Part shown: positions 8,152 to 46,205 of the stretch, piece after piece
Position numbering within the stretch: the first letter of the stretch is position 1
Layout of the letters: the number at the start of each line of letters is the position of its first letter
Source: Pseudomonadales bacterium
Lineage (GTDB): Bacteria > Pseudomonadota > Gammaproteobacteria > Pseudomonadales > Azotimanducaceae
Assembly (NCBI GenBank): GCA_028281005.1
Contig: JANQKS010000021.1
Location: 1 to 50,352 of the forward strand
Direction of reading: 5' to 3'
Length of the DNA stretch: 50,352 nucleotides
The notes under the pieces: generated by a model
Database searches by the model: none
Seen by the model: only the letters and a program-made list of their open reading frames with translations
Told to the model about the DNA's origin: nothing
Program-made: the position numbers and the translations under genes

Positions 8152-9016
8152 ATGACCACAGCACACATTTCACGCCAACGTTTTGTGGCTCAAGGGGCAG
8201 CGCTGACAGCCGGCCCGCTTGGCGCGCGTCATTCACTCGCGCATTGGACACCGCCGGTGATGAGCTGGAAAGAATGGGCCAGCTACGATGCCTTGGGATT
8301 GGCCGAGCTCATCCGCAGCGGTGAAGTATCCGTCCTCGAGGTGGCGGAGCAAACCATGCACGCTACCCATTTGGTTAACCCTACCACCAATGCCGTGTTG
8401 GAGTTTTACTACGACAAGTTGGCCCACGGAAAAACCGTCAACCTGCCCAAGGGTATCTTCCACGGTGTGCCGTATTTTTTAAAGATGTTGGCCAAGTCGA
8501 ACAGGGGCGCGTCGCCGAGCTGTTGCGTAACCTCGGCCACCAGGTGGAAGAAGCTGACGCGCCGATTGACCACAGCGCTTTTTATCAAGCCTTCAAAGTG
8601 CAGTGGACCGCAGGCAACCATGCCCGCTTGTCCGCTGCCGAGCTAAAACAGCTGGCGCTGACACTCGAGGAGCCAGACTATAGCCAAGCAGAACCGGTCA
8701 CCCGCGTGATCTACGCCGACGGACAAAGGTGGACCCGCGAGGACTACCTCGCCGCCATCGACGTAAATCAGCAGACCACACATGGTCGTTTATCCCCTAC
8801 ACGCCGCTCGGCAACTTTACCGGACACCCGGCGATCAGCTTGCCGGTGGCAAAGTTTGCCGACGGGATGCCGTTGGGTGCGCACTTCATGGGTGCCTACG
8901 ACAGTGAAGTCACGCTGCTGCAGGTCGCCGCCCAGTTGGAACAAGCCCAACCTTGGTTTGATGATCACCCCCCATTCCACGTGACCGCCTTTGACGCGCA
9001 CGCCGCCAATCGGTAG
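8152..9016 (+). pseudogene. Amidase pseudogene with large internal deletion and frameshifts
   Basis: Three pieces of one amidase-signature enzyme lie in three frames. 8152 to about 8495 gives the N-terminus (LGLAELIRSGEVSVLEVAEQ, then GIFHGVPYFLKM). About 8495-8780 gives a late-middle part (VEQGRVAELLRNLGHQVEEA). About 8780-9016 gives the C-terminus (FIPYTPLGNFTGHPAISLP, then ADGMPLGAHFMGAYDSE). The Lys and Ser-cisSer catalytic section that should follow HGVPYFLKM is missing. What is left codes for about 285 residues against 450-550 for a whole enzyme. The gene is dead; sequencing error cannot explain the missing catalytic core. Confidence 0.82.
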
Positions 9017-9059
9017 CGTTGCCTCAGGGCACTAAAAAGAATATTCAAAGGAGGAACCC

Positions 9060-10361
9060 ATGGCCGAAATGGCACTAGAAAACCCAGACTTGTTCGAACT
9101 GAGCATGTCGGATGAAGCCGCGCCACTGCTGGATGCGGTTAAAAAACACATCCAGGAGAATGTCGCACCCATCAGCGAAGAGTTTTACGCACTCGACAAA
9201 GAAAAAGAAGACCGCTGGACCTGGCATCAGCGGCAACTCGAACTGTTGGACGGCGCCAAACAAGCGGCCAAAGCCAACGGCTTGTGGAATTTTTTCCTAC
9301 CGGATGCAGACACTGGTGAAGGCTTGAGCAATCTCGACTACGCCTACATCGCCAACGAGCTGGGTAAGTGGCCGCTCGCCTCGGAAACACTCAATTGTTC
9401 AGCGCCGGACACCGGCAACATGGAGGTGCTTGAGCGCGTCGGCACGGAGGCGCAAAAGGAGCAATGGCTAAAACCGCTGTTAAACGGTGAAATCCGTTCC
9501 GCCTACGCCATGACCGAACCGGCAGTTGCCTCCTCCGATGCTAAAAACGTCGCCACTTCAGCCGTGTTGGACGGTGACGAGTGGGTCCTCAACGGTGAAA
9601 AGTACTATATCTCCGGCGCCGGTGATCCACGCTGCAAAGTCATGATTACCATGGTCAAAACCAGTCCGGAGGCGCCGCCGCATAAACAGCAATCACAGAT
9701 CCTCGTTCCCATCGACACCCCCGGCGTGAAAATTCTCGAAGGTATGGAGTCTTTTGGAGAAGACGATGCACCCCACGGCCACATGCACATCGTGTTTGAT
9801 AATGTGCGCGTGCCGAAAGAGAACATACTGCTGGGTGAAGGCCGCGGCTTTGAGATTTCACAGGTGCGTTTGGGCCCTGGGCGTATTCACCACTGCATGC
9901 GTTCCATCGGCGCCGGCGAGAAAGCCCTGGAGCTCATGGTACGCCGCGGCTTGGGCCGTCAGGCATTTGGGCGCCCCATCTTGCAGCTGGGTAAAAACAT
10001 CGAGCTGGTGTCCCGCGCGCGCATCGAAATTGACGCTTGCCGTCTCATGGTGCTGCAGGCCGCCAAAGCCATGGACGTGCTGGGCAACAAAGAAGCCCGC
10101 ATCTACGTCAGTGCGGTAAAAGCCATGGTGCCGGAGAAGATGTGCCAGATCATCGACTGGGCCATCCAAATCCACGGCGCCACCGGTGTCTCTCAATGGA
10201 CTCCGTTAGCACGTATGTATGCTCGCCAACGTAACCTGCGACTGGCAGACGGCCCGGATGAGGTGCATCACATGGTGGTTGGGCGCAACGAGCAACGTAA
10301 ATACGAAGGTGAGCGTTACACCGGCCTAGATGACAAGCTGGTGCTCAAGCATAACGTTTAA
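9060..10361 (+). CDS. Acyl-CoA dehydrogenase family protein (ACAD10/11-like)
   Basis: A 433-residue flavoprotein that would introduce a C=C bond in an acyl-CoA using FAD. Seen are AYAMTEPAVASSDAKN and DGDEWVLNGEKYYISGAG (flavin and substrate loop), IVFDNVRVPKENILLGEG, and the C-terminal QIHGATGVSQWTPLARMYA and RLADGPDEVHHMVVGR. The last motif is the mark of the ACAD10/11 branch. AAAGGAGGAACCC just before ATG 9060 is an excellent ribosome site. It follows the dead amidase by 43 bp and is convergent with the nitroreductase. Substrate unknown; larger or branched acyl chains would fit the branch. Confidence 0.9.
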   Translation: MAEMALENPDLFELSMSDEAAPLLDAVKKHIQENVAPISEEFYALDKEKEDRWTWHQRQLELLDGAKQAAKANGLWNFFLPDADTGEGLSNLDYAYIANELGKWPLASETLNCSAPDTGNMEVLERVGTEAQKEQWLKPLLNGEIRSAYAMTEPAVASSDAKNVATSAVLDGDEWVLNGEKYYISGAGDPRCKVMITMVKTSPEAPPHKQQSQILVPIDTPGVKILEGMESFGEDDAPHGHMHIVFDNVRVPKENILLGEGRGFEISQVRLGPGRIHHCMRSIGAGEKALELMVRRGLGRQAFGRPILQLGKNIELVSRARIEIDACRLMVLQAAKAMDVLGNKEARIYVSAVKAMVPEKMCQIIDWAIQIHGATGVSQWTPLARMYARQRNLRLADGPDEVHHMVVGRNEQRKYEGERYTGLDDKLVLKHNV

Positions 10362-10378
10362 GCGCCTGCTTAAACTGA

Positions 10379-11038
10379 TCATGAGGCCCGCCTCCCCCAG
10401 CGGTTGAGGTGGGTCTTTTGCTCCGCCGGAACGCGTCGTACCGGTCCAAAGTTACCCATCGGCCAGCCTATCGGGATGGTGACCACCACGCCGTAGTCCT
10501 CGGGGATTTGGAAATACGCGTGCAGCTCTTCCTCAAAAACCTGGTGCATGGTGGTGAGCGCCGCGCCCAATCCCACGGCGCGGCAGGCCAACAAGATATT
10601 CTGCACACAGGGATAAACCCCGCCGTAGTTTGGCGGCGCTAAACCCACCCGCTCTTCAGCCGGGACTTTAAACGGCCAATCCCGGGCACCACACGCCAAC
10701 ACCAGGTAAGGCGTTTCGTGCAGGTGGTCAATTTGATACAACACCGCCTGCAACTGCCGATTGAGCTTGTCTTCACCGACTTCAATGTCTGCGCGCGATA
10801 TGCCAAACCGCGATTCCATCGCCTGGGCATAGCGTTCGGCAAACCACAGCTTGCTGTCCGCGTCTTCCACCACCACAAATTCCCAGGGTTGCAGATTCTG
10901 CCCGGAAGCTGCCTGCACCCCCGCGTTTAACACTTTAAACAACAATTCCCTCGGCACTGGATCGGGTTTCAGGCGGCGCATGGCCCGTACGTTGCCGACT
11001 AAATCGAAAAACTCCGGGTGTAGTGTGGGTTCCGCCAT
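10379..11038 (-). CDS. Nitroreductase family protein
   Basis: A 219-residue FMN-dependent oxidoreductase. The N-terminus carries the family pattern AMRRLKPDPVPRELLFKVLN and AGVQAASGQNLQPWEFVVVE, which contacts FMN. NYGGVYPCVQNILLACRAVG and LGAALTT form the dimer and flavin part, and PIGWPMGNFGPVRR closes the domain. The frame is open to 11137, but ATG 11038 (MAEPTLHPEFFDLVG) gives the usual family start and leaves a normal 155-bp divergent promoter region before yghU. It would reduce nitro, quinone or enone substrates with NAD(P)H; the substrate here is unknown. Confidence 0.87.
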   Translation of the reverse strand: MAEPTLHPEFFDLVGNVRAMRRLKPDPVPRELLFKVLNAGVQAASGQNLQPWEFVVVEDADSKLWFAERYAQAMESRFGISRADIEVGEDKLNRQLQAVLYQIDHLHETPYLVLACGARDWPFKVPAEERVGLAPPNYGGVYPCVQNILLACRAVGLGAALTTMHQVFEEELHAYFQIPEDYGVVVTIPIGWPMGNFGPVRRVPAEQKTHLNRWGRRAS

Positions 11039-11193
11039 GATGTGTGTTCCTTTAGTCCTGTTTGTTGGGAGCCTATACGCCCAGTGTTGCGCAAACAATT
11101 GCATACATGCCCGCGCCCCACGTAAATTTCTGCACAAGATATTGCTAGACTCACAAGCGTAACTTCACACCCCCACGTATAAGGAAAAACACC

Positions 11194-12039
11194 ATGACGG
11201 AATACACGCCTCCCAAGGTTTGGACCTGGGATAAGGAAAGCGGCGGGCGTTTTGCAAACATCAATCGTCCGATCGCCGGCGCTACTCATGACAAAGAACT
11301 CCCCGTGGGTGAGCACAATCTGCAGCTGCACTCATTGGCCACGCCGAATGGGGTCAAAGTAACCATCCTGTTGGAAGAATTATTGGAGTTGGGTGTTACC
11401 GAAGCCGAGTATGACGCGTACACCATTAACATCGGGGAAGGTGATCAGTTTGGCAGCGGATTTGTGGCGTTAAATCCGAATTCCAAAATTCCTGCCTTGC
11501 AAGACCGCAGCACCACACCACCCACCCGGGTGTTCGAATCCGGCGCCATTTTGGTCTATCTCGCTGAGAAGTTTGGTCACTTTTTACCCACGGACCCATC
11601 CACCCGCGCCGAATGTATGTCGTGGCTCATGTGGCAAATGGGCAGCGCCCCGTACATTGGCGGTGGTTTCGGTCACTTCTACGCGTACGCGCCGGAGAAG
11701 ATTGAATACTGCATCAACCGTTACACCATGGAAGCCAAGCGGCTGTTGGACGTGTTGGACCAACGCTTGGCAGACAATGAGTTTTTGTGCGGCGACGAAT
11801 ACACCATCGCGGATATGGCGAACTATGCCTGGTACGGCGCGTTGGTATTGCACAACATTTATGACGCCGCGGAGTTTATCGAAGCCGATTCGTACGTGAA
11901 CGTAGTGCGCTGGGCCAAACAAATTGAGGAACGCCCGGCGGTGCAACGTGGGCGGCGGGTGAACCGACCCTGGGGTCCAGAAGAAACCCGCGTGGTGGAG
12001 CGCCACAGCGCGGCGGATTTTGACATCAAGCCCGCATAG
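11194..12039 (+). CDS. yghU: Glutathione-dependent disulfide-bond oxidoreductase YghU
   Basis: A 281-residue glutathione-transferase-fold protein closely resembling E. coli YghU along its whole length: PKVWTWDKESGGRFANINRP at the start, HSLATPNGVKVTILLEELLE, NPNSKIPALQD, FESGAILVYLAEKFGHFLP, GGGFGHFYAYAPEKIEY and ERPAVQRGRRVNRPWG. The family binds two glutathiones and reduces disulfides such as 2-hydroxyethyl disulfide. The length matches. It starts at ATG 11194 after AAGGAAAA and is divergent from the nitroreductase. A 57-codon amidohydrolase stump follows. Confidence 0.93.
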   Translation: MTEYTPPKVWTWDKESGGRFANINRPIAGATHDKELPVGEHNLQLHSLATPNGVKVTILLEELLELGVTEAEYDAYTINIGEGDQFGSGFVALNPNSKIPALQDRSTTPPTRVFESGAILVYLAEKFGHFLPTDPSTRAECMSWLMWQMGSAPYIGGGFGHFYAYAPEKIEYCINRYTMEAKRLLDVLDQRLADNEFLCGDEYTIADMANYAWYGALVLHNIYDAAEFIEADSYVNVVRWAKQIEERPAVQRGRRVNRPWGPEETRVVERHSAADFDIKPA

Positions 12040-12065
12040 ACAGCCGTTCCACCAGGCCGAGACAC

Positions 12066-12239
12066 ATGAGCATTACCATCTACCCAACGCGCAAAGTCAT
12101 TACCATGAATCCCTCCAACCCGAAGGGTACTCACGTGGCGGTACGCAACGGCATGATCCTCGGTGTCGGCAGCCTGGATGAATTAAGCGGCTGGGGCGCG
12201 ACTTACAACGTGATGCTATTGCAGGGTGCGGAGGCGTGA
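12066..12239 (+). pseudogene. N-terminal stub of an amidohydrolase
   Basis: A 57-residue frame: SITIYPTRKVITMNPSNPKG, then THVAVRNGMILGVGSLDELS and GWGAT. This is the first beta-sandwich segment of YtcJ/amidohydrolase-type proteins, which normally run to about 500-580 residues and continue into the metal-binding HxH strand. Here the frame ends in unrelated residues and TGA. All metal ligands are missing, so it cannot be active. It starts 26 bp after yghU. Confidence 0.65.
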
Positions 12240-12284
12240 ACAGGACGAAAACGAACCAAAACGCGCGATGAATGCGGATCTGAC

Positions 12285-12303
12285 CTAGTGCTCAAACCAC
12301 TAG
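12285..12303. terminator. Hairpin between amidohydrolase stub and MBL gene
   Basis: CTAGTG (12285-12290) and CACTAG (12298-12303) form a perfect 6-bp stem with a 7-base loop, placed just past the end of the minus-strand MBL gene (12308). There is no T-run, so it is a weak candidate terminator. Confidence 0.25.
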
Positions 12304-12307
12304 ATCA

Positions 12308-13363
12308 CTATGCCTGACGCCACCAGGCTACCCCTTGCGCGTCTTCTTCCACCGTCACCATGCGGCGCTCCAATGCACAATGCAGATGGGCAATCGACTC
12401 GCCGGTTGCGGGAAAGAAACTGGTATCGGTAATTTGGCTTTTAAACAGCGCTGGAAACACATCCACCGCGCGTTTGGGTTCTGCGCACAGATCGTACAGT
12501 TTTTCCAGCGCCACCTCGTGCCAGTCGATCAGTGCGGTGAGGCGTTCGTGCACACCTTCATAAAGGCTTTCATGGGCCGGTAAGACCAGCAAATCCGGCG
12601 GTAATACTTCCCGGAAACGCCCGCAGGAGTTGATAAAGTCGCGCAACGGGTTGGCGCTAGGTTCAGAAGGATTCACGCTGACATTGGGCGTGATCTTCGG
12701 TAAAAGCTGGTCACCGCCAATGATGACTTTGAGCTCCGGGCAATACAGACAAACGTGTTCCGGTGCGTGGCCATGGCCGATGATGGCGCGCCATTCGCGG
12801 CCGCCAATGTCCAGGTACTGGCCTTCGTTAATACGCCGGTAACCCGCCGGCAGCGGTGAGATATTGGCGCCAAATTGACCAAATCGTTCACGGTAACGGT
12901 CTAGCCGTTCCTCGGTAAAACCCGCGCGGCGGTAAAACCGGATGGCGTCTTCCGGCACATCCGATGGGCCGTCAGCCGCCATCACCTTGCACATGAAAAA
13001 GTCACTGCGGGACATCCACAACTCAGCACCAAACTCCTGACAAATCCAACCCGCTAAACCCGTGTGGTCGGTGTGCAGATGCGTAGCGATGACCCTGGTG
13101 ACCGGCTTACCTTCGAGATAGTTTGCAAATATCTTGCGCCAGCAATCTTGCACGTCTTCTCGAAATAGCCCGGTATCCACCACAGTCCAGCCGTCATAGT
13201 CCTCCAATACCCACACATTAATGTGATTGAGGCGGCCCCACATGGGCATCCGCGCCCAATACACCCCATCAGCAACCCGGGTTAAGGCGCCGGGCTCTGG
13301 AGCTTCGTCCTCAAAGCGATACGTCAGCGGGTCAAATCCGCGTTTGGACATGTTATCGACCAC
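12308..13363 (-). CDS. MBL-fold metallo-hydrolase
   Basis: A 351-residue metallo-beta-lactamase-fold hydrolase. The metal motif is complete: THLHTDHTG with His95, His97, Asp99 and His100. Later ligands appear in IGHGHAPEHVCLY (His) and VIIGGDQLLP (Asp), with a final PAHESLYEG His. A C-terminal helical region of about 90 residues follows, as in many thioesterase-like or quinolone-lactonase-like members. GTG 13363 is preferred over ATG 13351 because AAAGGAG lies at the right distance from the GTG. It lies 30 bp downstream of the P450 gene on the same strand, suggesting joint transcription. The substrate could be a CoA thioester or a lactone (inference). Confidence 0.88.
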   Translation of the reverse strand: MVDNMSKRGFDPLTYRFEDEAPEPGALTRVADGVYWARMPMWGRLNHINVWVLEDYDGWTVVDTGLFREDVQDCWRKIFANYLEGKPVTRVIATHLHTDHTGLAGWICQEFGAELWMSRSDFFMCKVMAADGPSDVPEDAIRFYRRAGFTEERLDRYRERFGQFGANISPLPAGYRRINEGQYLDIGGREWRAIIGHGHAPEHVCLYCPELKVIIGGDQLLPKITPNVSVNPSEPSANPLRDFINSCGRFREVLPPDLLVLPAHESLYEGVHERLTALIDWHEVALEKLYDLCAEPKRAVDVFPALFKSQITDTSFFPATGESIAHLHCALERRMVTVEEDAQGVAWWRQA

Positions 13364-13393
13364 AGGGATCTCCTTTAGGCGTGGGGTAATGTG

Positions 13394-14665
13394 TTAACGA
13401 ACGTCAAACGCCAGCGGTAAACCGATTAGGCCGTGTAACAAGGCGTTCGGTGCAAACTGTGGCTCAATTGCCCCAGGTTGCAGCCGGAAATTCTCCAAGC
13501 GCTCAAACAGGACTTTGAAGCCACCGTTCATTTCACGGCGCGCCAGTGCCGCACCCAGGCAATGGTGAACCCCTTTGCCGAAGGCAACGTGGTCTTTCAA
13601 ATTGTCGCGCATGATGTTGAATGTCATGGCGTCGGCAAATTGCGCATCGTCTTGGTTGGCGGAGGCAAAACGGGCAAAACAAACGGAATTTTCCGGAATG
13701 GTCACACCGTGCAATTCCACCTCGCGGGTGGTGCGGCGGAACATATTGGAAGAAGGACTGGAATAACGCAGCACCTCTTCCACCAGGCGGCTGATCATCT
13801 CCGGCGATGGGTCGTTACGCACCAGTTCGTATTGATCCGGATTTTCGATTAACAACCAGATACCTTCAGTGAGCGAACCGGCGGTGGTTTCGTTCCCCGC
13901 CACCAGGATCTGCGACAACATGGACAAACACTCGGCATTGTCCAACGGTTTTTCACCATCGATGCTGGCGTTTACAACTTTGGAGAGGATGTCGTCTTCC
14001 GGCTGGCGGCGCCGCTCCTCCATCTTTTCAACAAAGTAGTGTTGAAACTCGAGGATGTCCTTAGCGGCCTGTAACGTCCCTTCACGGTCAAGTTGCTGAC
14101 TGAGATTGCCAATAAAAGCTTCCGTCCATTTACGCAGTAGCGGCAGATCCTCCAGTGGCACACCAATTTGCGAAGCGATCACTTTCAGCGGCAGCGGCAC
14201 GCCAAAGTCATTCAAAAACTCACACTGGCCGGCGTCGGCAAAGGCATCAATCAACTCGTTTGATATCTGCTCTATGTACGGTTCCAAGGCTTTTAAATTG
14301 GACGGCGAGAAGGCGCCGTCGACAAACTTGCGATATCTGCGCTGCAGCGGCGGATCCTGGGTGAGCATGGTGGGAACGTTTGGATACCCCTGCTCCAGCA
14401 GGTCGACCACCTCTTGGTCGTCGGAGTTTACCGCTCGCGTGGTGGTCCCAGGCATCACGCTGGAGAAGGTCTGATGGTCCTGTGCCATCGCCACCACATC
14501 TGCGTAGCGCGAGATAAAAAAGATACCCGACATGGGGTCCTGAAACACCGGGGCTTCTTCGCGCAAACGGCGGTTCATCAACGCCGGGCAGGCCAGCACC
14601 TCAGGATGCATAGGCATAATTTCGTCGATGGGGCAGGTTTTGATCTGCTCAAGTATCTCGCTCAT
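13394..14665 (-). CDS. Cytochrome P450
   Basis: A 423-residue bacterial class I P450. The I-helix oxygen-binding motif is AGNETT (residues 256-261), the ExxR motif is EVLR (297-300), and the heme loop is AFGKGVHHCLGAALAR with the iron ligand at Cys369. The substrate-recognition part (LTQDPPLQRRYRKFV) has the usual DPP-H/R pattern. No membrane anchor, so it is soluble and needs a ferredoxin partner, which is not seen nearby. It is followed at 30 bp by the MBL hydrolase and preceded by an LLM oxidoreductase on the same strand. A separate P450 stub lies at 46010. Confidence 0.93.
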   Translation of the reverse strand: MSEILEQIKTCPIDEIMPMHPEVLACPALMNRRLREEAPVFQDPMSGIFFISRYADVVAMAQDHQTFSSVMPGTTTRAVNSDDQEVVDLLEQGYPNVPTMLTQDPPLQRRYRKFVDGAFSPSNLKALEPYIEQISNELIDAFADAGQCEFLNDFGVPLPLKVIASQIGVPLEDLPLLRKWTEAFIGNLSQQLDREGTLQAAKDILEFQHYFVEKMEERRRQPEDDILSKVVNASIDGEKPLDNAECLSMLSQILVAGNETTAGSLTEGIWLLIENPDQYELVRNDPSPEMISRLVEEVLRYSSPSSNMFRRTTREVELHGVTIPENSVCFARFASANQDDAQFADAMTFNIMRDNLKDHVAFGKGVHHCLGAALARREMNGGFKVLFERLENFRLQPGAIEPQFAPNALLHGLIGLPLAFDVR

Positions 14666-14749
14666 GAGTAGCTCTGGGTAAAAGTTAAGCCGGCTATTTT
14701 AAGAGAACTCGGTGATGCTTGGACAGCGCCGCGTGTTTGACCAAATCGA

Positions 14750-15670
14750 TCAATCCAAGAGGGACTGTGCTGCAAGCGTGGCGTGGATTGCCGCCATGTG
14801 TTCGTGCAGGGCATCAACGCTGCGAAACCCCGCGCGGAACAATTCCACCAAGTTGATGGTGGCCCAGGTAAAACCCAATTCACCCAAGGCCGCCGCTTGT
14901 TCAGTCATACGTTGGGGATTTTTATAGAACTCCCGCGGGTCGTCTGTGCGCGCCGGCGTCAGTGACATCTGCAAACCGATCTCCGCCGGGTCGCGCCCTA
15001 CCGCCTGTGCGTGTTCGTGAATGGTCTCAATACTGCGCTTGGTTTTGTCCGGATTGAAACCAAAACTCATACCCATCCAACCGTCCCCCACCTCGGCCAC
15101 GCGCCGCAACGCACGCGGTACCATGCCACCGATCCAGATCGGGATGTCGGCACCCTGTGGGGGTTTGGGCTCCATGGCCATGGCTTGCAGCGAATAAAAC
15201 TCACCCTGGACATCAATATTTGCCTCGGACCAACAGGTGCGCAACAGCTGGATGGCCTCATCCATACGCTGGCCACGATTATCAAATGTTTCCTCCAGAG
15301 CATCATATTCACTGGCCTGCCAGCCGGCACCCACACCCAGGCGCACGCGCCCGCCGGACAGGGTATCCAGCGTACTGACCTGTTTGGCCACTAGCGTCGG
15401 CTGCCGTTGGGGCAACACCAGTACCCCGGTAGACAGGCCAACGCGGCTGGTCACCGCCGCGGCAAAAGACAATAGGGAAAAGACTTCCAAGATTGGCATC
15501 TGCGCCGGGTAGATGGGTTTGTCGCGCCCGGGGGCTTCGTATCCCATGACCACGTGATCGAGCACGTTTATGTCATGGAAACCCACCGCTTCGACGGCTT
15601 GGATCAGACGCAGCACCCCTTGCGGCCCTTCGCGGTACATCACGCTCGGGAAGGTAATGCTAAATTTCAT
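14750..15670 (-). CDS. LLM class flavin/F420-dependent oxidoreductase
   Basis: A 306-residue TIM-barrel protein of the luciferase-like monooxygenase class, close to the TIGR03619 type. Seen are MKFSITFPSVMYREGPQG, VGLSTGVLVLPQRQPTLVA, KQVSTLDTLSGGRVRLGVG, AGWQASEYDAL and IPIWIGGMVPRALRRVAEVG. The family uses F420 or reduced FMN; the sequence alone does not decide which. ATG 15670 (MKFSITF) is the family start, six codons inside the longest frame. It lies upstream of the P450 on the same strand (84 bp), so the LLM, P450 and MBL genes may form one catabolic unit. Confidence 0.87.
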   Translation of the reverse strand: MKFSITFPSVMYREGPQGVLRLIQAVEAVGFHDINVLDHVVMGYEAPGRDKPIYPAQMPILEVFSLLSFAAAVTSRVGLSTGVLVLPQRQPTLVAKQVSTLDTLSGGRVRLGVGAGWQASEYDALEETFDNRGQRMDEAIQLLRTCWSEANIDVQGEFYSLQAMAMEPKPPQGADIPIWIGGMVPRALRRVAEVGDGWMGMSFGFNPDKTKRSIETIHEHAQAVGRDPAEIGLQMSLTPARTDDPREFYKNPQRMTEQAAALGELGFTWATINLVELFRAGFRSVDALHEHMAAIHATLAAQSLLD

Positions 15671-15785
15671 GCCTAATCCTGGTGGCATTTTTTGTCGTCA
15701 CGATCGATGCCCGTGGCTTCAAACAACCCCGAAGGGTAGCATCCCCCCATACCTTTGAGTATCAACCGCAACGTTTTCATTACTT

Positions 15786-37096: not shown

Positions 37097-40000
37097 TGTG
37101 GCTGTCTGACGTTTCGGTCAAGCGGCCGGTATTTGCCACGGTCATCAGCCTGATGCTGGTCGCGTTTGGCGTTTTGTCATTCAACTATCTACCGGTGCGT
37201 GAATACCCGGATGTAAATCCACCGGTCGTTTCAGTGGATACCACCTATATTGGCGCAGGCGCGGACATTATCGAATCCCGCGTGACGCAGATCATTGAAG
37301 ACCAGATCAACGGCATCGACGGCATCAAATCCATCAGTTCTTCAAACCGTGATGAACGCTCACGCATCACCGTCGAGTTTAACCTCGACCGCGATATCGA
37401 AGAAGCCGCCAACGACGTGCGCGACCGGGTTTCGCGCGTGGTCGGCCGGCTCCCGGAAGACGCCGAAAAACCAATCGTCTCGAAATATGACTCCGACCGG
37501 CGGCCGATCTTACACCTAAACCTCTCCAGCAGCGAAATGTCGCTGTTGGAACTGGATGATTACGTGCGCCGCTATGTGGTCGACCGGTTTGCCGTGGTGC
37601 CTGGCGTAGCGGACGCCAGCGTGCGCGGCTCGGGCCGGCAGTCTATGCGTATCTGGCTGGATCGTATGAGCTTAGCCGCGCGCAATCTCACCGTCACCGA
37701 CATCGAAAACGCTTTGCGGCGGGAAAACATTGAGCTACCGGCCGGACGCCTGGAATCCGCGGACCGTGAACTGCGCCTGCGTCTGACACGCAATTATGAA
37801 ACCCCGGAAGATTTTCGCGCCCTGGTAGTGGGCGTGGGAGAACAGGGTTACCCCATACGTTTGGGGGAAGTGGCGGAGATTGAAATAGCATCCAGCAACT
37901 TCCGCGACTTGATGCGCGTGAACCAGAGAGAAATTGTTGGCATCAGTATCTCCAAACAGTCCAAAGCCAACACCTTGGAGACCATCGACGGTGTCAGGAA
38001 GGTGCTGGCCCAAGTGAAAAGCACTTTGCCGGACCATATGCAGCTTGTCTCCAGCTCCGACGACTCTGAGTTCATCCGCTCTGCGATCAAGTCTGTCTAT
38101 CAGACCATCGCCATTACCACCGTGCTGGTCAGCCTGGTTATCTTGCTGTTCTTGGGCACTTTGCGCACGATGATCATCCCGGCCATTACCATACCGGTGT
38201 GCCTCACCGCCGCCTTTATTGCCTTGGCTGCTTTCGACTTCTCGGTCAATCTCATCACCTTGCTGGCCTTGGTGCTGTCGATCGGCTTGGTGGTCGACGA
38301 TGCCATCGTGGTACTTGAAAATATCTATCGCCGTGTCGAAAAAGGAGAACCGCCTTTGCTGGCGGCCTATCGCGGCTCGCGCCAGGTCTCTTTTGCGGTG
38401 GTGGCCACCACCGCGGTGTTGGTCGCCGTGTTCACACCGATCATCTTTTTGCGCGACAACATGGGGGTGTTGTTCGGCGAACTGGCCGTGGCTGTATCAG
38501 CCGCGGTCATCTTCTCCAGCATTTTGGCACTGTCATTAACACCCATGCTGTGTTCGAAACTGTTAAAAGCCTCACCGCGACCTAATCCGCTGACCAAACT
38601 GGTGGATAACGCCTTTCGTAGCTTAGAAGCCCGATATAAAACCGCGTTGGGTTTTATGCTGCGTCACCCGTGGACTGCTGCCGTAGCACTGTTCGTGACC
38701 TTTGGCCTGACGTATACCTTGTTCTCCCAGGTGCCCCAGGAATACGCCCCGGCGGAAGATCAAGGCGTAATTTTTGCCTCTGTGCGCACCGCCGAAGGCA
38801 CCAGCATTGAGCGTATGAAGCAGGAGACCAGCAAACTCGAAGCCACCGTCATGCCTTACGTGGAAAACGGTGAGGTACGCCGAGTGTTGGTGTTTGTACC
38901 CGGCTGGGGTAGCTCCTCCACCAACAGCGGTATGTTGATTGTTGATCTCGCCGCCATCGACGACCGCAACATCGCCACCGCCGATCTGGCGCGCAAACTC
39001 ACAGGCCAATGGCAAGACATACCGGCCGTGCGCGCGTTTGCGTTTTCCCGCTCGGGCCTATCTAGTCGCGGTGGTGATCAACCCATTCAGTTTGTGATCG
39101 GCGGCCCGGACTACGACGAGCTGGCGCGTTGGCGCGACATTGTGCTGGAGCGAGTTGAAGCTTATCCGGGTATCGCCCGCATGGATGCCGACCTCAAAGA
39201 AACTCAGCCGCAAGTCCACGTGCGCATCGACAAAAACCGCGCCGCTACCCTCGGTGTTTCCGTGCAAAATGTCGGCCGTACATTGGCGGCCATGATGAGC
39301 GAACAGCGGGTCACCACCTATGTGCAGGATGGCGAGGAGTACGACGTCATCATGCAGGCGCGCGACGATCAACGCGCCACCCCCCAAGACTTAGACAACA
39401 TCTATGTACGCTCGGAAACCAGCGGCCAATTGGTGCCGTTAGCAAATCTGATCTACGTTGAGCAAACCGCCGGCGCCGGATCGCTGAACCGATACAACCG
39501 TTTGCGTGCAATTACTTTGAGCGGCAGTCTCGCGCCGGGTTATTCACTCGGAGATGTACTGACATTTTTGGAGAACGTGGTGCTCGAAGAGTTGCCGCAG
39601 ACCGCACAAATTGACTATCGCGGCGAGTCATTAGATTACCGGGAATCGTCGAGTAGTTTGTTTTTCACTTTTGGTCTTGCCCTGTTGATCGTCTTCCTGG
39701 TGCTCGCCGCGCAATTCGAAAGTTTCGTTCACCCATTTGTTATTTTGCTGACGGTCCCCCTGGCCATGGCTGGTGGTTTGCTGGGTTTGTACGCCATGGG
39801 TTTGACGCTCAACATCTATAGCCAAATTGGCATCATCATGTTGATCGGGATTGCCGCCAAAAACGGCGTGCTCATCGTGGAATTTATTAATCAGCTACGC
39901 GACGCCGGCCGAGGCTTTGAAGAAGCCATCATCGAAGCGGCTGGTATCCGCCTGCGTCCGGTGCTGATGACCACCATTTCAACCGTGATGGGTTCTATTC

Positions 40001-40221
40001 CACTGATTCTCGCCATGGGAGCCGGGGCAGAATCGCGCAACGTATTGGGTGTGGTGATCTTCTCCGGCGTCAGTTTGGCCACCTTCTTAACGCTGTTTAT
40101 GGTACCGGCGTTTTATCGCCTGTTGGCCAGACGCAGCGGCTCCCCTGAGTTGGTGGCCAACGAGTTAGAGCGTTTGGCCGAGCATCACCCCCGACCCAAT
40201 TCACCGCGCATAGGCGGCTAG
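37096..40221 (+). CDS. RND efflux transporter, HAE1-type inner-membrane pump
   Basis: A 1041-residue AcrB/MexF-like proton-driven pump with the usual 12 membrane helices in two halves. Start: LSDVSVKRPVFATVISLMLV. TM4 carries the proton-relay pair Asp401-Asp402 (SIGLVVDDAIVVLENIYRRV). TM10 has Lys922 (GIAAKNGVLIVEFINQLR). Large periplasmic loops follow TM1 and TM7 (PQEYAPAEDQGVIFASVRTA). Length and all key residues are normal. It is coupled to the adaptor by a TGATG overlap. The substrates are unknown. Its stop shares the bases CTAG with the stop of the convergent VOC gene. Confidence 0.94.
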   Translation: MWLSDVSVKRPVFATVISLMLVAFGVLSFNYLPVREYPDVNPPVVSVDTTYIGAGADIIESRVTQIIEDQINGIDGIKSISSSNRDERSRITVEFNLDRDIEEAANDVRDRVSRVVGRLPEDAEKPIVSKYDSDRRPILHLNLSSSEMSLLELDDYVRRYVVDRFAVVPGVADASVRGSGRQSMRIWLDRMSLAARNLTVTDIENALRRENIELPAGRLESADRELRLRLTRNYETPEDFRALVVGVGEQGYPIRLGEVAEIEIASSNFRDLMRVNQREIVGISISKQSKANTLETIDGVRKVLAQVKSTLPDHMQLVSSSDDSEFIRSAIKSVYQTIAITTVLVSLVILLFLGTLRTMIIPAITIPVCLTAAFIALAAFDFSVNLITLLALVLSIGLVVDDAIVVLENIYRRVEKGEPPLLAAYRGSRQVSFAVVATTAVLVAVFTPIIFLRDNMGVLFGELAVAVSAAVIFSSILALSLTPMLCSKLLKASPRPNPLTKLVDNAFRSLEARYKTALGFMLRHPWTAAVALFVTFGLTYTLFSQVPQEYAPAEDQGVIFASVRTAEGTSIERMKQETSKLEATVMPYVENGEVRRVLVFVPGWGSSSTNSGMLIVDLAAIDDRNIATADLARKLTGQWQDIPAVRAFAFSRSGLSSRGGDQPIQFVIGGPDYDELARWRDIVLERVEAYPGIARMDADLKETQPQVHVRIDKNRAATLGVSVQNVGRTLAAMMSEQRVTTYVQDGEEYDVIMQARDDQRATPQDLDNIYVRSETSGQLVPLANLIYVEQTAGAGSLNRYNRLRAITLSGSLAPGYSLGDVLTFLENVVLEELPQTAQIDYRGESLDYRESSSSLFFTFGLALLIVFLVLAAQFESFVHPFVILLTVPLAMAGGLLGLYAMGLTLNIYSQIGIIMLIGIAAKNGVLIVEFINQLRDAGRGFEEAIIEAAGIRLRPVLMTTISTVMGSIPLILAMGAGAESRNVLGVVIFSGVSLATFLTLFMVPAFYRLLARRSGSPELVANELERLAEHHPRPNSPRIGG

Positions 40222-40622
40222 GACAGCTGCAGGAGCTCTACCCAGTTGCCGTCGGGGTCTTCGACCATCGCAATGTTGACCCCCGGGCGCGACTCCCTGA
40301 TGGGCACCGGAACGTTACAACCCGCGGCGCTACATTCCTCAACCGCGGCGGTCAGATTGTCCACACTGATGGTGAAGTAACGCATGCCGGTTGCACCCAT
40401 AATACCACCGGGCGGGTTCTGCGCATCAGGCGTCGACGGCAACGTCACCAATTTAATGATGGTGGTGCCACAGATGAGGCGCGTCATGGTCATGCCGCCG
40501 GGCATGTCTAACACCGCCTCGACTTGTAAACCCAGCGTATCCCGGTAAAACGCCGTCATGGCCTCGATGTTTCCGGTCACCAGGCCAATGTCTATAGAGT
40601 CTTTGGTAATCCTCAACGGCAT
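40218..40622 (-). CDS. VOC family protein
   Basis: A 134-residue glyoxalase-fold protein: DIGLVTGNIEAMTAFYRDTL, GLQVEAV, MRYFTISVDNLTAAVEECSA and VNIAMVEDPDGNWVELLQLS with the metal-site Glu. It is the last gene of the ACAD pair operon, 26 bp after the 420-residue ACAD. It may act as an epimerase or isomerase of a CoA ester (some VOC proteins are methylmalonyl-CoA epimerases), but this is not shown. Confidence 0.85.
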   Translation of the reverse strand: MPLRITKDSIDIGLVTGNIEAMTAFYRDTLGLQVEAVLDMPGGMTMTRLICGTTIIKLVTLPSTPDAQNPPGGIMGATGMRYFTISVDNLTAAVEECSAAGCNVPVPIRESRPGVNIAMVEDPDGNWVELLQLS

Positions 40623-40648
40623 GTGTCTCTCCTCTTGTTTGGTGTTGT

Positions 40649-41911
40649 TTAATCGTTGCGCTTGATGTCACGGAAGGGGCCAGTGTCCGCGCGTGTTTCC
40701 GTGGGCATACCTAACACCCGCTCGGCAATGATGTTGCGCTGAATTTCGTCTGTACCCCCGGCGATCGAGATGGCCGGCACCGACACCAACACCTCGGCCA
40801 CCATACCTTCTTCAGCAGATTCCGGTCCGCTGCGCATGGCGTCGGCGCCGGAAATCATGGTGTGTACGTGGGCAGCCTGGCGGGCAATGACGCTGGCCGC
40901 CAGCTTGCCAATGGAACCTGCCGGTACCAGCTCGTTGGATCCCGACTTACGTTTGGCTTCCGCAGCCTCCGAAGCCAACATCGCCCCTTTTGACATACAG
41001 ATGAGTTTGGCCATCTCTTGGCGTACCGCGGGATCTTGGATAGCGCCGGTTTGTTGGGCGCGGGGTAACACCAGATCTACCCGCCCCTGCCGTTGGGGGT
41101 ACCAGGTATACGGCTCGTTGGCGATACGCACTTCCTGCGCATATTCGTCATACACCCGACCCTGGCGTTTACCCCGCAAGCCGCCAAAACTCCGCGTAAC
41201 ACCACCCATGCGGCGCTCATAAGACAACGTGGTTTTGGCCACCGCCCAGCCGTTACCTTCACCACCAACCAAGTTGTTGGCCGCCACCACCGCGTCGGTT
41301 AAGAACACCTCGTTGAAAGAGGCGTGTCCATTCATTTGTTTAAGCTGACGCACCTCTACGCCCGGCTGACGCATGTCGATCAAAAAATAACTAATACCCT
41401 GATGTTTGGGTAAGTCAAAATCCGTGCGCGCCACTAGGACGCCAAAATCCGCATGATGAGCACTGGTGTTCCATACCTTCTGGCCATTAACGATCCACTG
41501 CCCGTCTATCATTTCCGCCTTGGTGGACAACCCCGCCAAATCCGAGCCACTACCCGGCTCGCTGAACAACTGACACCAGGAGTGCTCACCGGTCAGGATC
41601 GGCCGCAGATAGCGGCGCTTCTGATCATCGTTACCCATCGCCAGGATGGTTTCTGCCGCCAAACGCCGGGGACCCGTCTGCGCCACCGGCACAATGCCGC
41701 GCTGGTTAAAAATTTTGGAGACCACGGCGGATTGTTCCTGATTAAAGTCGCGCCCAAAAAAAGCCTGCGGCCAATGCGGAGTGGCCCAGCCGCCGTCCAC
41801 CAATATCTCGCGCCACTCACGCAGGGAAAGATCTGCATTCCAATTGGCATCCAACCAAGCGTGCACCGCGTCGGCAATGCTTTCGTTAGTTAGGTTCTCT
41901 GTTTCGCTCAT
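40649..41911 (-). CDS. Acyl-CoA dehydrogenase, large (alpha-type) subunit, second pair
   Basis: A 420-residue ACAD: GWATPHWPQAFFGRDFNQEQ, WCQLFSEPGSGSDLAGLSTK, VNGQKVWNTSAHHADFGVLV, FNEVFLTDAVVAANNLVGG and IAGGTDEIQRNIIAERVLGM. The possible helix-G catalytic Glu is Glu232 (TTLSYERRMGG). ATG 41911 overlaps the stop of the upstream ACAD (ATGA), indicating coupled synthesis in equal amounts, as expected for a heteromeric enzyme. The frame is open to 42010, but that part overlaps the neighbour. Confidence 0.9.
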   Translation of the reverse strand: MSETENLTNESIADAVHAWLDANWNADLSLREWREILVDGGWATPHWPQAFFGRDFNQEQSAVVSKIFNQRGIVPVAQTGPRRLAAETILAMGNDDQKRRYLRPILTGEHSWCQLFSEPGSGSDLAGLSTKAEMIDGQWIVNGQKVWNTSAHHADFGVLVARTDFDLPKHQGISYFLIDMRQPGVEVRQLKQMNGHASFNEVFLTDAVVAANNLVGGEGNGWAVAKTTLSYERRMGGVTRSFGGLRGKRQGRVYDEYAQEVRIANEPYTWYPQRQGRVDLVLPRAQQTGAIQDPAVRQEMAKLICMSKGAMLASEAAEAKRKSGSNELVPAGSIGKLAASVIARQAAHVHTMISGADAMRSGPESAEEGMVAEVLVSVPAISIAGGTDEIQRNIIAERVLGMPTETRADTGPFRDIKRND

Positions 41912-43014
41912 CACAGACTCCCTTGCGCTTCGATGACACCCATCATGCGCTCGCGATGTAAATTCGGGGTACCCATAAACACTTCTGAGCTTTTTGCCCG
42001 CTTGTACCAAAGGTGAGTGTCCTCTTCCCAGGTAAAACCAATTCCCCCGCGCATTTGAATGGCTTCCTTCGCCGCTTTCATATAAGTATCCGACGCCATC
42101 GCCTTGACCATGCTGGCGACGTAGGGTTCACCTTCGCCGGCGTCCAAACAACGCGCCGCATGGTGGACGGCCGCGGTGGCCATCTCCACTTCCATCAACA
42201 AATCTGCGCAGCGGTGCTTCAAGCCCTGAAAAGATCCAATCGGACGGCCAAACTGATACCGCATCTTAGTGTATTCAATGGTGGAATCGAGCAGATGCCG
42301 AGCCCCACCGATCATTTCGTGGGCCAAGGCCACACAAACAAAGTCCCAGGTGGTGTTTAAGGAGTCGGCAGAAACTTCGCCAATCTGCTCAACCGCAGCC
42401 TGGGCAAATTCTACCTTCGCCAGCTTACGTGTCGGGTCCAGCGCCGGGACGGTCTCCACCGAAACACCTGAGCTGTCCCCCGGCAGACTATACAAGCCAA
42501 GACCGGCGCCATGATTCGCAATGACCAGGAGTTGAGTAGCGATGTGTGCGTCCACCACCAGCGGGGCGGTGCCGGACAAGCGGCCCTCTGCAACGGCCAA
42601 ACCAGAACCGATCTTGGCCGGCGCATCTAACGAGTCCAGCACCAAGGTGGCCAGCGTGGTACCGGCGGCAATACCCGGCAGCAGAGCATCTTTGGCGGCT
42701 TCATCAGCGTTGTGTAACAAGGCGTAGGCAGCCATCACCGCGGAGGAAAAAAAGGGTCCGCAGTATAGGTAGCGGCCCATTTCTTCGGCCGCAATACCTA
42801 ATTCGACCGGACCAAAACCAAAACCGCCATATGCTTCAGGTATGTGGGTACCCGCCAGCCCCACCTCGCTGCACAACTGCTGCCAGACGGACGCATCATA
42901 GCCGGCGTCACTCTCCATACACTGCCGTACTGCAGTCGGCTGGGATTTCTCCTGCAGAAACCGCGACACCATGGTGCGGAATTGCTCTTGATCTTCACTA
43001 AACTCTGTTTGCAT
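41911..43014 (-). CDS. Acyl-CoA dehydrogenase, small (beta-type) subunit, second pair
   Basis: A 367-residue ACAD: SEDQEQFRTMVSRFLQEKSQ, VGLAGTHIPEAYGGFGFGPV, KMRYQFGRPIGSFQGLKHRC, ADLLMEVEMATAAVHHAAR and IQMRGGIGFTWEEDTHLWYK. It lacks the EIQRN ending of the large subunit. With the overlapping 420-residue gene it forms the second alpha/beta ACAD pair of the window. It heads a three-gene operon (beta, alpha, VOC) and is divergent from the NERD gene. Confidence 0.9.
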   Translation of the reverse strand: MQTEFSEDQEQFRTMVSRFLQEKSQPTAVRQCMESDAGYDASVWQQLCSEVGLAGTHIPEAYGGFGFGPVELGIAAEEMGRYLYCGPFFSSAVMAAYALLHNADEAAKDALLPGIAAGTTLATLVLDSLDAPAKIGSGLAVAEGRLSGTAPLVVDAHIATQLLVIANHGAGLGLYSLPGDSSGVSVETVPALDPTRKLAKVEFAQAAVEQIGEVSADSLNTTWDFVCVALAHEMIGGARHLLDSTIEYTKMRYQFGRPIGSFQGLKHRCADLLMEVEMATAAVHHAARCLDAGEGEPYVASMVKAMASDTYMKAAKEAIQMRGGIGFTWEEDTHLWYKRAKSSEVFMGTPNLHRERMMGVIEAQGSL

Positions 43015-43176
43015 GCATCTCCCTACCGCAAGCGCTTGGCGCCATTAATGTGCCGCGCTTTATGTCTCTCTTTACGACTATCTTTATGTCCCGGCCAAAT
43101 GCGCAATAGCGCACGCACCGTTGAATAGTTATGCGAATAACATAGCATGAGACGAGCCGAGAAGAGGAGTTTGCGC

Positions 43177-43734
43177 ATGACAAACATAGGCATGTTTGCT
43201 GCCCTTATTGCCGCCGGCTGCGCGGTGGTGGCCAGCCTGTGGCTGCTACGTTGGTGCCGCAACCCCGAGCGCAGGCTAGAACAGGCATTTAGTACCTTTA
43301 GCTCTGCACAACTGCGTGATTTTGTGATCCCCGACGGCACCGGCGGTGAAATTCAGCTCGACTGCCTGCTACTCACACCAAGTGGCCTGGTGGTGCTAGA
43401 CATCAACGACACCCAGGGTACGGTATTTGCCGGTGAGCGCCTTGATCTGTGGAGCGCCACCAGCGCCGGCGCACGCATCACCTTCGATAATCCACTGCCG
43501 CTGTTACAAGCGCGCGTTGATGCGGTTGAGCAACTGGCGCGCGGTATCAAAGTGGAGGGCCGTATCTTGTTCACCGCGGAAACGGATTTTCCCAAGGGGC
43601 ATCCGCCTGAGGTCACCACCCTTGCCGCGCTACAGGAGGCATTGGCGCCGCATCAGCAGAATACTAAGATTGACGGCAGCCACCATCCACTTGCCGCCCA
43701 ATGGGAAAGCGTGGTCAACGCCGTCGTCAAATAA
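43177..43734 (+). CDS. NERD-domain membrane protein
   Basis: A 185-residue protein with one N-terminal membrane helix (NIGMFAALIAAGCAVVASLW) and a NERD (nuclease-related) domain: HLVL-type core EIQLDCLLLTPSGLVVLDIN, then DTQGTVFAG and LWSA. The Glu/Asp-x-Lys nuclease core is not clear (DINDTQG in place of EVKN), so nuclease activity is doubtful. GAAGAGGAG precedes ATG 43177, which is chosen over 43147. It is divergent from the ACAD pair operon. Confidence 0.7.
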   Translation: MTNIGMFAALIAAGCAVVASLWLLRWCRNPERRLEQAFSTFSSAQLRDFVIPDGTGGEIQLDCLLLTPSGLVVLDINDTQGTVFAGERLDLWSATSAGARITFDNPLPLLQARVDAVEQLARGIKVEGRILFTAETDFPKGHPPEVTTLAALQEALAPHQQNTKIDGSHHPLAAQWESVVNAVVK

Positions 43735-43815
43735 ACCCGTGTTGTCACGCACGCGCCACCCATTCGGCTTTGCTTGCAGTACCATATTCAGACCACCTCA
43801 CAGGACGCGAACAAC

Positions 43816-44900
43816 ATGCAACACGGCTTCGTGGTGCCCAACAATTTTGGTATCGCGGACCCGCGTCAGCTGGTTGAACTGGCAGTGCACGCCGAAGCCC
43901 AAGGTTACCACTCGGTATGGGTCAACCATCACGTCCTGAACGTGGGGTATGTCAAAGACCGCCTCGAACACGCGCCCTACCACGATGCGTTAGTCACCGT
44001 AAGCTGGATGGGGGCCGCCAATCTGCAGCCCGGCTGGCAGGCGGAACGGCAAAAACGTTTGGGTGAAACGTTGCTCGGCAGCGCCGTTTATCCCGAGTTT
44101 GAAGACGATGGCTGGTCCCGTTTTGCACGCAACTTGCGTACGCTGCTGGCACAGGCCGGTGACATCCCCGCCACCGAGCTTGAAGAGCTGACGCAGTTGG
44201 CCAACTATAAAATCATGGAGGAGATCCGCAGCCGTGTCAGCGACACCGTGCAAGACCCGGCCGTGGCGGAGCAGTTAAAAGCCTACTACAACCAATTCTG
44301 TAAGCGGCCAACCTGCAACGACAAATACCTGGAAACGTTTAATCGCACCAACGTCGAATTGATCGACGTCAGTGACGCCAAGGGGGTTGAGCGCATCTCA
44401 GCCCGAGGCGTGGTAGCCAACGGCAAAGAATACGAAGTCGATTGCATTGTTTACGCCAGCGGTTTCGAAATCACCAGCAGCTACCTACGCCGCATCGGCA
44501 TCCCCATTTATGGGATAAACGGCGAATCGATTTATACACACTGGGACAAGGGTATGCGCACGATGCACGGGCTGATGTCTCACGGCTTTCCAAACTTGTT
44601 TCTGTGTGGCGGCTTGTTTGTGTTTCAACTGGGCGCAAACTACTGCTACGGCGTCGATGTCCAGGCGGAACGTGGGTTGACGATCAGCTCAGCAGTGAAT
44701 CTGCCCCGGCACAGTTGATTCTGGGCGGTTCGCCGGAAAGCTGTACACCGGGTTACTACAATCAGGAAGGGACCGACGAGCGTTATCGAGATGTGCGGCT
44801 GGAATCTTATGGCAAAGGTCTAGGCGCTTACCGCCAAGTCCTCAGAGATTGGCGCAGCGCCGGGGAATCAGCCGGCTTGGAGCTCACCACTCAAACATAA
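43816..44900 (+). pseudogene. Chimera: LLM N-terminus fused to Baeyer-Villiger monooxygenase middle and tail
   Basis: The first 68 residues are the start of an LLM protein (MQHGFVVPNNFGIADPRQLV, then LVTVSWMGAA). At about 44022 they join in frame to the C-terminal half of a flavin-dependent BVMO: NLQPGWQAERQKRLG, RVSDTVQDPAVAEQLKAYYN, QFCKRPTCNDKYLETFNRTN and DCIVYASGFEITSSYLRRIG. The frame stops at 44718, but the true BVMO ending continues in another frame to 44900 (CTPGYYNQEGTDERYRDVRL). The BVMO FAD-binding GxGxxG and FxGxxxHxxxWP motifs are absent. Non-functional as an oxygenase; deletion of an LLM 3' part and BVMO 5' part would explain it. Confidence 0.75.
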
Positions 44901-45028
44901 GCCGGCCAGCGCCCACGCGGCACAAGCGACTAAAATGGGAGACGGCGCACGTTTTCGGCATAACCCCTCTGGCTAAATGAGCAAACCTAGGAAAAGTTGA
45001 CGCTCAATAGTCAAAGGGGATACGCATC

Positions 45029-45991
45029 GTGACCCGCATGCGCAATCTTGGCGCCCGTGCCCGTAGCGCCACATTGATGGCCGCACTCACCTTCACGTTA
45101 AGTGCCTGCGGTGGTGGTGGTGGTTCTTCCAGCACCGCGGTGGACAGCGCCAGCAGCGGTGGTTCGGGCAGCGGCGGAACACCCTCGCCCAGTCCTGGCC
45201 CTGACACGCAAGCCCCCGTGATCAGCTCACACACACCTACCGAAGATGCAACGGGTGTTGCCGTGACTGCGGCCATAGAAGTGCAGTTTGACGAAACGCT
45301 GGCTGCCGCGAGCGTCAATGCGGACAGCATCATCTTGAGCTTAAACGCGGTACCGTTGGCGGGTGATGTTTCATATGACGCGGCCAGCCGTCTGCTGCGC
45401 TTCGAGCCCCGCGATGAGCTAGTGCCCGACACGGTCTACAGTGTGGAGGTGGCCACCACCTTGGCAGACAGCGCCGGTAACCTCTTCCTCGGCGCCACTT
45501 GGTTTTTCACCACCGGTGATGGCTTCAACCTCGGCGCCACCACGCAGACCACCATCGATCAGTGTATGCAAGACAGTGACAAACAGATGCTGACTTTGGT
45601 GAACAATTCCCGCGCCAGCGCCACTACCTGCGGCGCTGACACCCTTGCTGCAGTACCGGCTTTGTCGTGGCATTGTTTGTTGGAAGACGCGGCCCAAGAC
45701 CACTCGGAATCCATGGCGGACAATGACTTTCATGAACACATCAGCCCCATAGACGGCAGCAACCCAGGCGATCGCATTGCAGCGACGGGTTATACGGCCA
45801 GAGCATGGGGAGAGAACATCGCCGCGGGTTATGCCGACACCGAAACGGTGGTACAAGCCTGGCTGGACAGCGAAGGTCATTGCCGTAATATCATGAGCGC
45901 TTCCTTTACCCAGATGGGATCAGGCGTTGCTGAAAATCCGGCCTCCACATACCGTATTTATTGGACACAAAAATTCGCCGCACCCCGGTGA
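45029..45991 (+). CDS. CAP-domain lipoprotein with Ig-like domain
   Basis: A 320-residue exported lipoprotein. Lipobox TLSACGGGGGSSS, then a Ser/Gly/Pro-rich linker. A bacterial Ig-like (Big_5 type) domain covers about residues 60-165 (APVISSHTPTEDATGVAVTA, then VYSVEVATTLADSAGNLFLG). A CAP/SCP domain follows (about 180-320): LLEDAAQDHSESMADNDFHE, RAWGENIAAGYADTETVVQA and WLDSEGHCRNIMSASFTQMG. GTG 45029 has AAAGGGG eight bases upstream and is used; ATG 45038 is the alternative. Probably on the outer-membrane surface or periplasm; role unknown. Confidence 0.87.
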   Translation: MTRMRNLGARARSATLMAALTFTLSACGGGGGSSSTAVDSASSGGSGSGGTPSPSPGPDTQAPVISSHTPTEDATGVAVTAAIEVQFDETLAAASVNADSIILSLNAVPLAGDVSYDAASRLLRFEPRDELVPDTVYSVEVATTLADSAGNLFLGATWFFTTGDGFNLGATTQTTIDQCMQDSDKQMLTLVNNSRASATTCGADTLAAVPALSWHCLLEDAAQDHSESMADNDFHEHISPIDGSNPGDRIAATGYTARAWGENIAAGYADTETVVQAWLDSEGHCRNIMSASFTQMGSGVAENPASTYRIYWTQKFAAPR

Positions 45992-46009
45992 TGTAAACAC
46001 TTTCTCCGA

Positions 46010-46205
46010 AGCTACAGCCAGCTTTTGTTAATTGCCGGCAACGAAACCACCACCAATCTGTTGAGCAACCTGCTCAACTACGCCGCAGACCACGGATAAT
46101 TGTGGCAGACCTTACGTACGCACCCCGACAAAATTGATGCGGCCATCACACCTTCGGCCATGGCATCCATTTTTGCATCGGCGCACCCTTGGCGCGGCTT
46201 TCACC
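46010..46205 (+). pseudogene. Cytochrome P450 stub (I-helix and heme loop only)
   Basis: SQLLLIAGNETTTNLLSNLL is a P450 I-helix. After a stop codon at the end of ADHG it reads LWQTLRTHPDKIDAAI. Then, in a shifted frame, comes TFGHGIHFCIGAPLARL, the heme-ligand loop. About 100 residues between, with the ExxR helix, and the whole N-terminal half are missing. It is a different sequence from the intact P450 at 13394 (HGIHFCIG versus KGVHHCLG), so it is the remains of a second enzyme. Confidence 0.75.

Follow-up and report, generated by a model that had tools for sequence, protein, structure and literature searches.

Here, we describe the remains of eleven genes, each reduced to a stump or to joined ends, in a 50,352-nucleotide stretch of DNA (the window: positions 1 to 50,352 of contig JANQKS010000021.1, C34) from the Pseudomonadales bacterium assembly GCA_028281005.1 (Azotimanducaceae; hereafter G000), a draft genome of 5,135,096 bases in 135 contigs with 98.67% completeness and 2.01% contamination. 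Every one of the eleven has lost more than 35% of its length, and together they retain 1193 of the 4072 codons present in the relatives used (29%; 524+550+331+310+204+262+216+331+286+613+445 residues). Remnants were detected by translating the gaps between long open reading frames (ORFs) and spotting family motifs in the short pieces, which were then compared by tblastn with full-length relatives, yielding E-values from 4e-4 to 2e-136; when only their small regions were searched, the MDR and P450 pieces reached 3e-7 or better with the best relative and the LLM piece 1e-7. Identity between the window and the DNA of relatives is mostly 65-79%, and the relatives' matches to window genes are scattered, mostly over different contigs, so that no syntenic sister serves for comparison. 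Among named records, the BVMO piece is matched best by metagenome-assembled Pseudomonadales or gammaproteobacteria. Rfam and tRNA scans yielded nothing.

Results

Six of the genes survive in two or more pieces, all collinear with their relatives (6/6). The amidase remnant (8146-8986, forward strand) consists of three pieces in three frames, corresponding to residues 11-124, 316-411 and 453-522 of 524, with joins near 8491-8498 and 8777-8779 where about 583 and 133 nt were removed. In the class II aldolase (21051-21383, forward), the N-terminal and C-terminal ends (residues 4-45 and 192-262 of 262) are joined in frame after removal of about 444 nt. The N-terminal end of BKACE (15749-15995, forward) is joined near 15804 to the middle of the gene, keeping residues 31-50 and 180-242 of 332 (or 1-33 and 150 onward of 302 by a second relative) and lacking about 389 nt (374 by the second relative). 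BKACE is joined in turn to a C-terminal piece (16001-16102, forward; residues 271-304 of 310) of a 3-hydroxyacyl-CoA-dehydrogenase-like (3HCDH) gene, which carries one in-frame stop; this gene lies 3' of BKACE in relatives, and the join removed about 1074 nt spanning both genes. A reading as BKACE joined to a second BKACE was ruled out by the 3HCDH-type identity of the neighbor.

The MDR (zinc-type dehydrogenase) remnant (33425-33700, forward) has lost its N-terminal end, and its cofactor-site piece is joined in frame to the C-terminal end, with residues 133 to about 181 and 286-331 of 331 kept and about 105 residues removed at the join. An N-terminal stump of an LLM (luciferase-like) gene (43831-43938, forward; residues ~7-42 of 286) is in frame with a BVMO remnant (44014-44888, forward) from which the first half is gone; residues 297-515 and 542-613 of 613 remain, and at the join near 44671 the frame is broken by removal of 76 nt (79 by another relative). 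A 61-residue LLM query found no match in the relatives' loci compared, where LLM was sought beside BVMO. In the second P450 (46025-46215, forward), an I-helix piece with one in-frame stop is joined to the haem-binding loop (residues 283-326 and 386-409 of 445), with about 60 residues removed between them.

The other three remnants are one-ended: an N-terminal stub of an Amidohydro_3-type amidohydrolase (12066-12197, forward; residues 1-44 of 550), a DsbA-like protein of HCCA-isomerase type (19434-19808, reverse strand; residues 75-199 of 204, the N-terminal 74 being gone) and the C-terminal tail of an OmpA-family gene (21899-22075, forward; residues 157-215 of 216). The ORF with an OmpA domain at 22144-23139 was considered as this tail and set aside, since it looks whole and the tail is a separate piece. 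The labels HCCA isomerase, MDR, LLM and BVMO are names that we presume to fit the Pfam families DSBA, ADH_zinc_N, Bac_luciferase and FMO-like. A preliminary description of this DNA had counted at least ten genes surviving as joined ends or stumps, and nine of its ten named items are indeed remnants; the nine represent eleven genes, since the BKACE piece runs into its 3HCDH-type neighbor and the LLM stump into BVMO, and the count stands. The tenth, a supposed SnoaL stub (5677-6195, reverse), is full length (DUF4440 6-107/107; SnoaL_3 3-116/121). Alignment to full-length relatives, which had been proposed as a check, matched all eleven genes (11/11) as stumps or as collinear joined ends.

The nine joins in the window, of which six can be placed on a relative's DNA, ignore reading frame and can span two neighboring genes, as from BKACE to 3HCDH. 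Frame is kept in three of the nine (aldolase, MDR and LLM-BVMO), which is the one-third share given by chance. At the six junctions, seven comparisons of the two sides gave shared runs of 0, 2, 2, 0, 0, 0 and 0 bases, against a null 95th percentile of 2.

Small lesions are scarce, as the preliminary description had noticed of point stops: the in-frame stops in the 3HCDH and P450 pieces are the only two among the 1193 retained codons, and no change of frame without loss was seen inside any retained piece. With expected stops calculated as 132.8 x d at a transition weight of 2, neutral divergence (d) comes to about 0.015 substitutions per site, with 0.048 as the upper limit at the one-sided 95% level, an age biased downward by pieces eroded past alignment, which go uncounted. 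Given so few stops and no small frameshift within pieces, the decay looks young. Private amino-acid changes at positions conserved in six relatives number 12/135 in the first BVMO piece, a mild rise over the 2-7 per relative, and 0/43 in the second. They number 4/50 in BKACE (relatives 0-3), at or near the relatives' range, and 3/39 in OmpA (relatives 0-5); the count for the isomerase (22/106, with 6/90 in each relative) is not comparable, as its two relatives are sisters. From this we infer that selection acted on the retained sequences until recently.

Whole genes adjoin the remnants, as the preliminary description had stated: 26 ORFs in the window match at least 70% of a database protein and are at least 70% as long. 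Its picture of a degradation island does not hold, given joined-end remnants on five other contigs (C12, C31, C55, C66 and C124) and an ordinary coding density in the span it had described (0.86 for ORFs of at least 150 amino acids, with a mean of 0.873 in 35 control stretches). A gene graveyard marked by low coding density is thus unsupported with ORFs of this size, though a looser gene call does give a lower density (0.835 vs 0.923). Short coding-like segments outside large ORFs number 25 in the window (5.0 per 10 kb) vs 91 in the first 20 control stretches (2.6 per 10 kb), a biased comparison in that the window was chosen for its remnants. Partial Pfam families were found at five places in the 21 of 25 window segments scanned (Y2_Tnp, Amidase, BKACE, DSBA and OmpA) and at four in the 40 scanned of 49 control segments selected out of the 91 (ACAD, ABC-FtsX and the weaker Cass2 and YchJ), with E limits of 0.001 for the window and 0.05 for part of the window and all controls; matches to glycine zippers, and one to DUF6552 at 0.014, are not part of the control count.

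One rule for joined ends picks out four separate places in the 783 kb surveyed in G000, namely ACAD (C12), MFS (C66), P450 (C124) and BVMO (the window), and none in 1600 kb of three relatives (G029, G021 and G025). By hand calculation the chance of all four falling in G000 is about 0.012, for control stretches that are non-random, lying on contigs named by earlier matches, with the C124 stretch taken for its P450 stub; without C124 and the window, two places remain and the chance is about 0.1. On C31 (L138:12903-13337), an ORF that begins as an ABC-transporter ATPase and finishes with the C-terminal end of an FtsX-like permease is also a joined-end remnant. Among 95 further loci from relatives (1051 kb, mostly metagenome assemblies, after 7 loci were dropped whose genomes had already been tested), four were flagged, of which two arose from an insertion in the query and two are ambiguous.

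A survey of 777 kb of G000 by one database rule found 11 places where more than 30% was lost, and point lesions in none of the full-length genes. The same survey gave two loss places and one point-lesion gene in G029 (680 kb), five and one in G021 (400 kb) and two and one in G025 (120 kb). It leaves out targeted loci, and some of its places match long ORFs and may not be remnants; its database recovers only one of the nine window items, so real counts are higher. The resulting ratio of length losses to point lesions, 11:0 in G000 vs 9:3 in the three relatives, was set aside as resting on counts too small to use. P450 frames shorter than 150 amino acids make up 3 of 38 match rows in G000 (one of them at a contig end), 1 of 20 in G025, 0 of 47 in G029 and 0 of 34 in G021, which has five P450 frames of 211-315 amino acids; such short frames in relatives count against a process confined to G000. 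A P450 stub on C94 was discarded, being cut by the contig end.

Of seven genomes of the genus searched for Ku (PF02735), four have it whole; none was found in G025 and G028, and the match in G000 covers profile positions 100-177 only. The G000 locus (C55, about 23051-23592; L257:11051-11592) holds residues 126-203 of 313 of Ku head to head with a LigD piece in which residues 325-401 are joined in frame to 809-832 of 833 (G029 numbering). Both genes are intact in G029, head to head and 104 bp apart. In G028, LigD is truncated by the contig end, so that genome may still carry Ku. No other match to Ku or LigD was found in G000, and from the extent of the missing sequence both proteins would be inactive there; the end-joining system appears to have been removed by the same kind of deletion as the window genes.

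Beyond the span covered by the preliminary description, a Y2 transposase fragment (5149-5346, forward; PF04986 90-143/183), which we take to be IS91-like, is a further remnant, and sits in the left end of the window, where GC is lower. Positions 6736-6893 hold an inverted repeat whose 21-bp arms match perfectly and are separated by 116 bp; it resembles the termini of a small mobile element, and no copy of it was found in 733 kb of G000 sampled. Two adjoining DUF7065-DUF7064 proteins (16214-18176) lie beside the BKACE remnant and share 64% and 30% identity with one and the same protein of a relative.

Discussion

Deletion bias in bacteria has long been known, and Mira, Ochman and Moran in 2001 and Kuo and Ochman in 2009 reportedly described a deletional bias in the erosion of bacterial pseudogenes. 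The remnants in the window probably reflect an ordinary and still young erosion, dominated by deletion, of accessory genes that are redundant. The deletion-biased process put forward in the preliminary description is supported by nine joins plus losses of gene ends, set against two stops in 1193 codons. In such a process, a catabolic gene would fall out of selection, errors of replication or break repair would cut out blocks of roughly 0.1-1.5 kb and join non-homologous ends, and selection would weed out deletions reaching useful neighbors, leaving stumps bounded by whole genes. Since deletions hitting a neighbor would not survive, whole neighbors could be explained without any special process. 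Loss in place, with mutation rather than selection as the driver and with weeding of deletions that reach neighbors, would thus account for the arrangement of the window.

Redundancy is apparent in G000, where match rows, counted together with the window pieces, number 23 for BVMO-type genes, 17 for amidase, 38 for P450 and 66 for LLM. In the three relatives searched, such rows number 20-47 for P450 and 39-84 for luciferase-like genes. Close counterparts are sparse in relatives in the two cases compared: amidase matches above 40% identity among the 39 relatives come only from G026, the source of the query, among the matches listed, and aldolase matches above 31% only from G021 (also the query source) and G030. 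Similar scars on other contigs of G000 involve ACAD, MFS, P450, ABC-FtsX and Ku-LigD. Streamlining or host restriction, suggested earlier as a cause, finds no support: the genome, at 5.1 Mb, is larger than those of 35 out of 39 relatives, which range from 1.6 to 6.0 Mb with several of them incomplete, and many catabolic paralogues are kept.

Several observations weigh against ordinary deletion-dominated erosion. Few of the pseudogenes of Salmonella have been shortened by more than 20%, and early stops and short indels rank among their most frequent lesions (Kuo and Ochman, 2010; PMC2916853); the spectrum here is therefore unusually coarse. Wild-type mutation-accumulation lines of E. coli are reported in a portion of another account to gain large insertions more often than large deletions, at a ratio of 4.86 (PMC10292909), so a bias toward large deletions is not universal. 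A universal bias would not predict the lack of joined ends in relatives surveyed by the same rule, tiny as these numbers are. Finally, microhomology of 3-10 bp, which had been suggested as a mark of such deletions, was not seen at the six junctions placed on relatives, a comparison of low power because those relatives are distant.

A change in repair is an alternative: loss of Ku-LigD, or another change in break repair, would lead to resective joining and more large deletions genome-wide. In its fullest form this would be a recent burst in the lineage, consisting of microhomology-poor deletions of 0.1-1.5 kb that hit unselected genes throughout the genome, with few small lesions, in which Ku-LigD was itself lost and its loss sustained the coarse spectrum. 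The sole Ku and LigD matches of G000 are remnants in the head-to-head order of G029, and the joined-end places number four in G000 and none in the three relatives. In M. smegmatis, according to part of one study, repeats gave large deletions chiefly in repair-deficient strains, most of all in mutants of non-homologous end joining (NHEJ) (PMC3519483). The same study also reports that precise deletions were unaffected by the absence of NHEJ and that episomal large deletions were NHEJ-independent (PMC3519483). When breaks were induced in Streptomyces, their mutagenic repair needed NHEJ, with one clone from a ku mutant and none from a ligase mutant (PMC5869714). Loss of Ku-LigD cannot cause the deletions that removed Ku-LigD, Ku is absent from 13 of 14 control genomes, and a burst linked to repair would concern one lineage only. 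The repair defect raised in the preliminary description is possible, as Ku and LigD are remnants, but G025, the one relative lacking both that was surveyed, has no joined-end remnant in 520 kb. We consider both the link to repair and the burst unlikely.

The remaining alternatives are less probable still. Chimeric assembly, in which the consensus would have joined strains or reads over missing blocks, deserves thought in a draft of 135 contigs with 2% contamination, but is improbable: searches of the assembly for the missing parts of three genes (amidase, aldolase and BVMO) did not recover them for any of the three, and among the matches listed the remaining copies are at most 57% identical (for the amidase, the best 12 of 17 rows). 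Own-genome searches of positions 8000-26000 and 28000-46000 showed no near-identical repeat (40/124 and 7/105 first-look candidates scored), and the whole window has none in 733 kb of its own DNA sampled apart from the short inverted repeat. Shared runs at the six placed junctions never exceed 2 nt, joined-end remnants on five other contigs also speak against an artefact, and the 95 other loci, mostly from metagenome assemblies, gave no clear stub. Arrival of fragments already truncated in horizontally acquired DNA is a little more doubtful again; it is compatible with the lack of synteny, window genes mostly matching different contigs of relatives, and would leave one-ended stumps (amidohydrolase, OmpA tail, isomerase) looking just as they do. 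The amidase, aldolase, MDR, BVMO, P450 and BKACE nevertheless hold two or more collinear parts, so internal deletion is needed at some time, and the Ku-LigD remnant retains the order of relatives. Least credible is the idea that the joined ORFs (aldolase, 118 amino acids; MDR; LLM-BVMO, 314 amino acids) are kept as new miniature proteins: three joins are in frame with open ORFs, but this share is that of chance, and cores are missing, including aldolase residues 46-191 and the N-terminal half of BVMO with its dinucleotide-binding matches.

Deletion-dominated erosion of the kind favored here resembles known systems in part. Like the Salmonella pseudogenes, for which parts of the account describe unselected genes eroding mainly by deletion, the window genes decay by loss of sequence; unlike them, small lesions are almost absent and all eleven genes have lost more than 35% of their length (PMC2916853), a combination that is unusual. 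Selection-driven gene loss in Salmonella, in the excerpt bearing on it, likewise removes superfluous genes by deletion (PMC3386194), while here one genome is concerned. Spontaneous deletions below 5 kb are frequent in Salmonella, where junctions were accepted from 8 bp of microhomology (PMC3411829), compared with runs of at most 2 nt here, at low power. Insect endosymbionts early in gene loss also shed many genes, repair genes included (PMC1544356); in contrast, G000 shows no sign of genome reduction and its catabolic breadth is kept. A literature search, a weak guide to what is in print, returned no title naming such joined-end remnants.

Intermediates of gene removal are rarely caught, and G000 has many genes that are half deleted and, it appears, only recently so. 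These adjoin intact paralogues, have full-length relatives in the genus and are accompanied by a broken end-joining locus. With Ku-intact and Ku-less members in one genus, a link between repair and deletion size is testable in this group.

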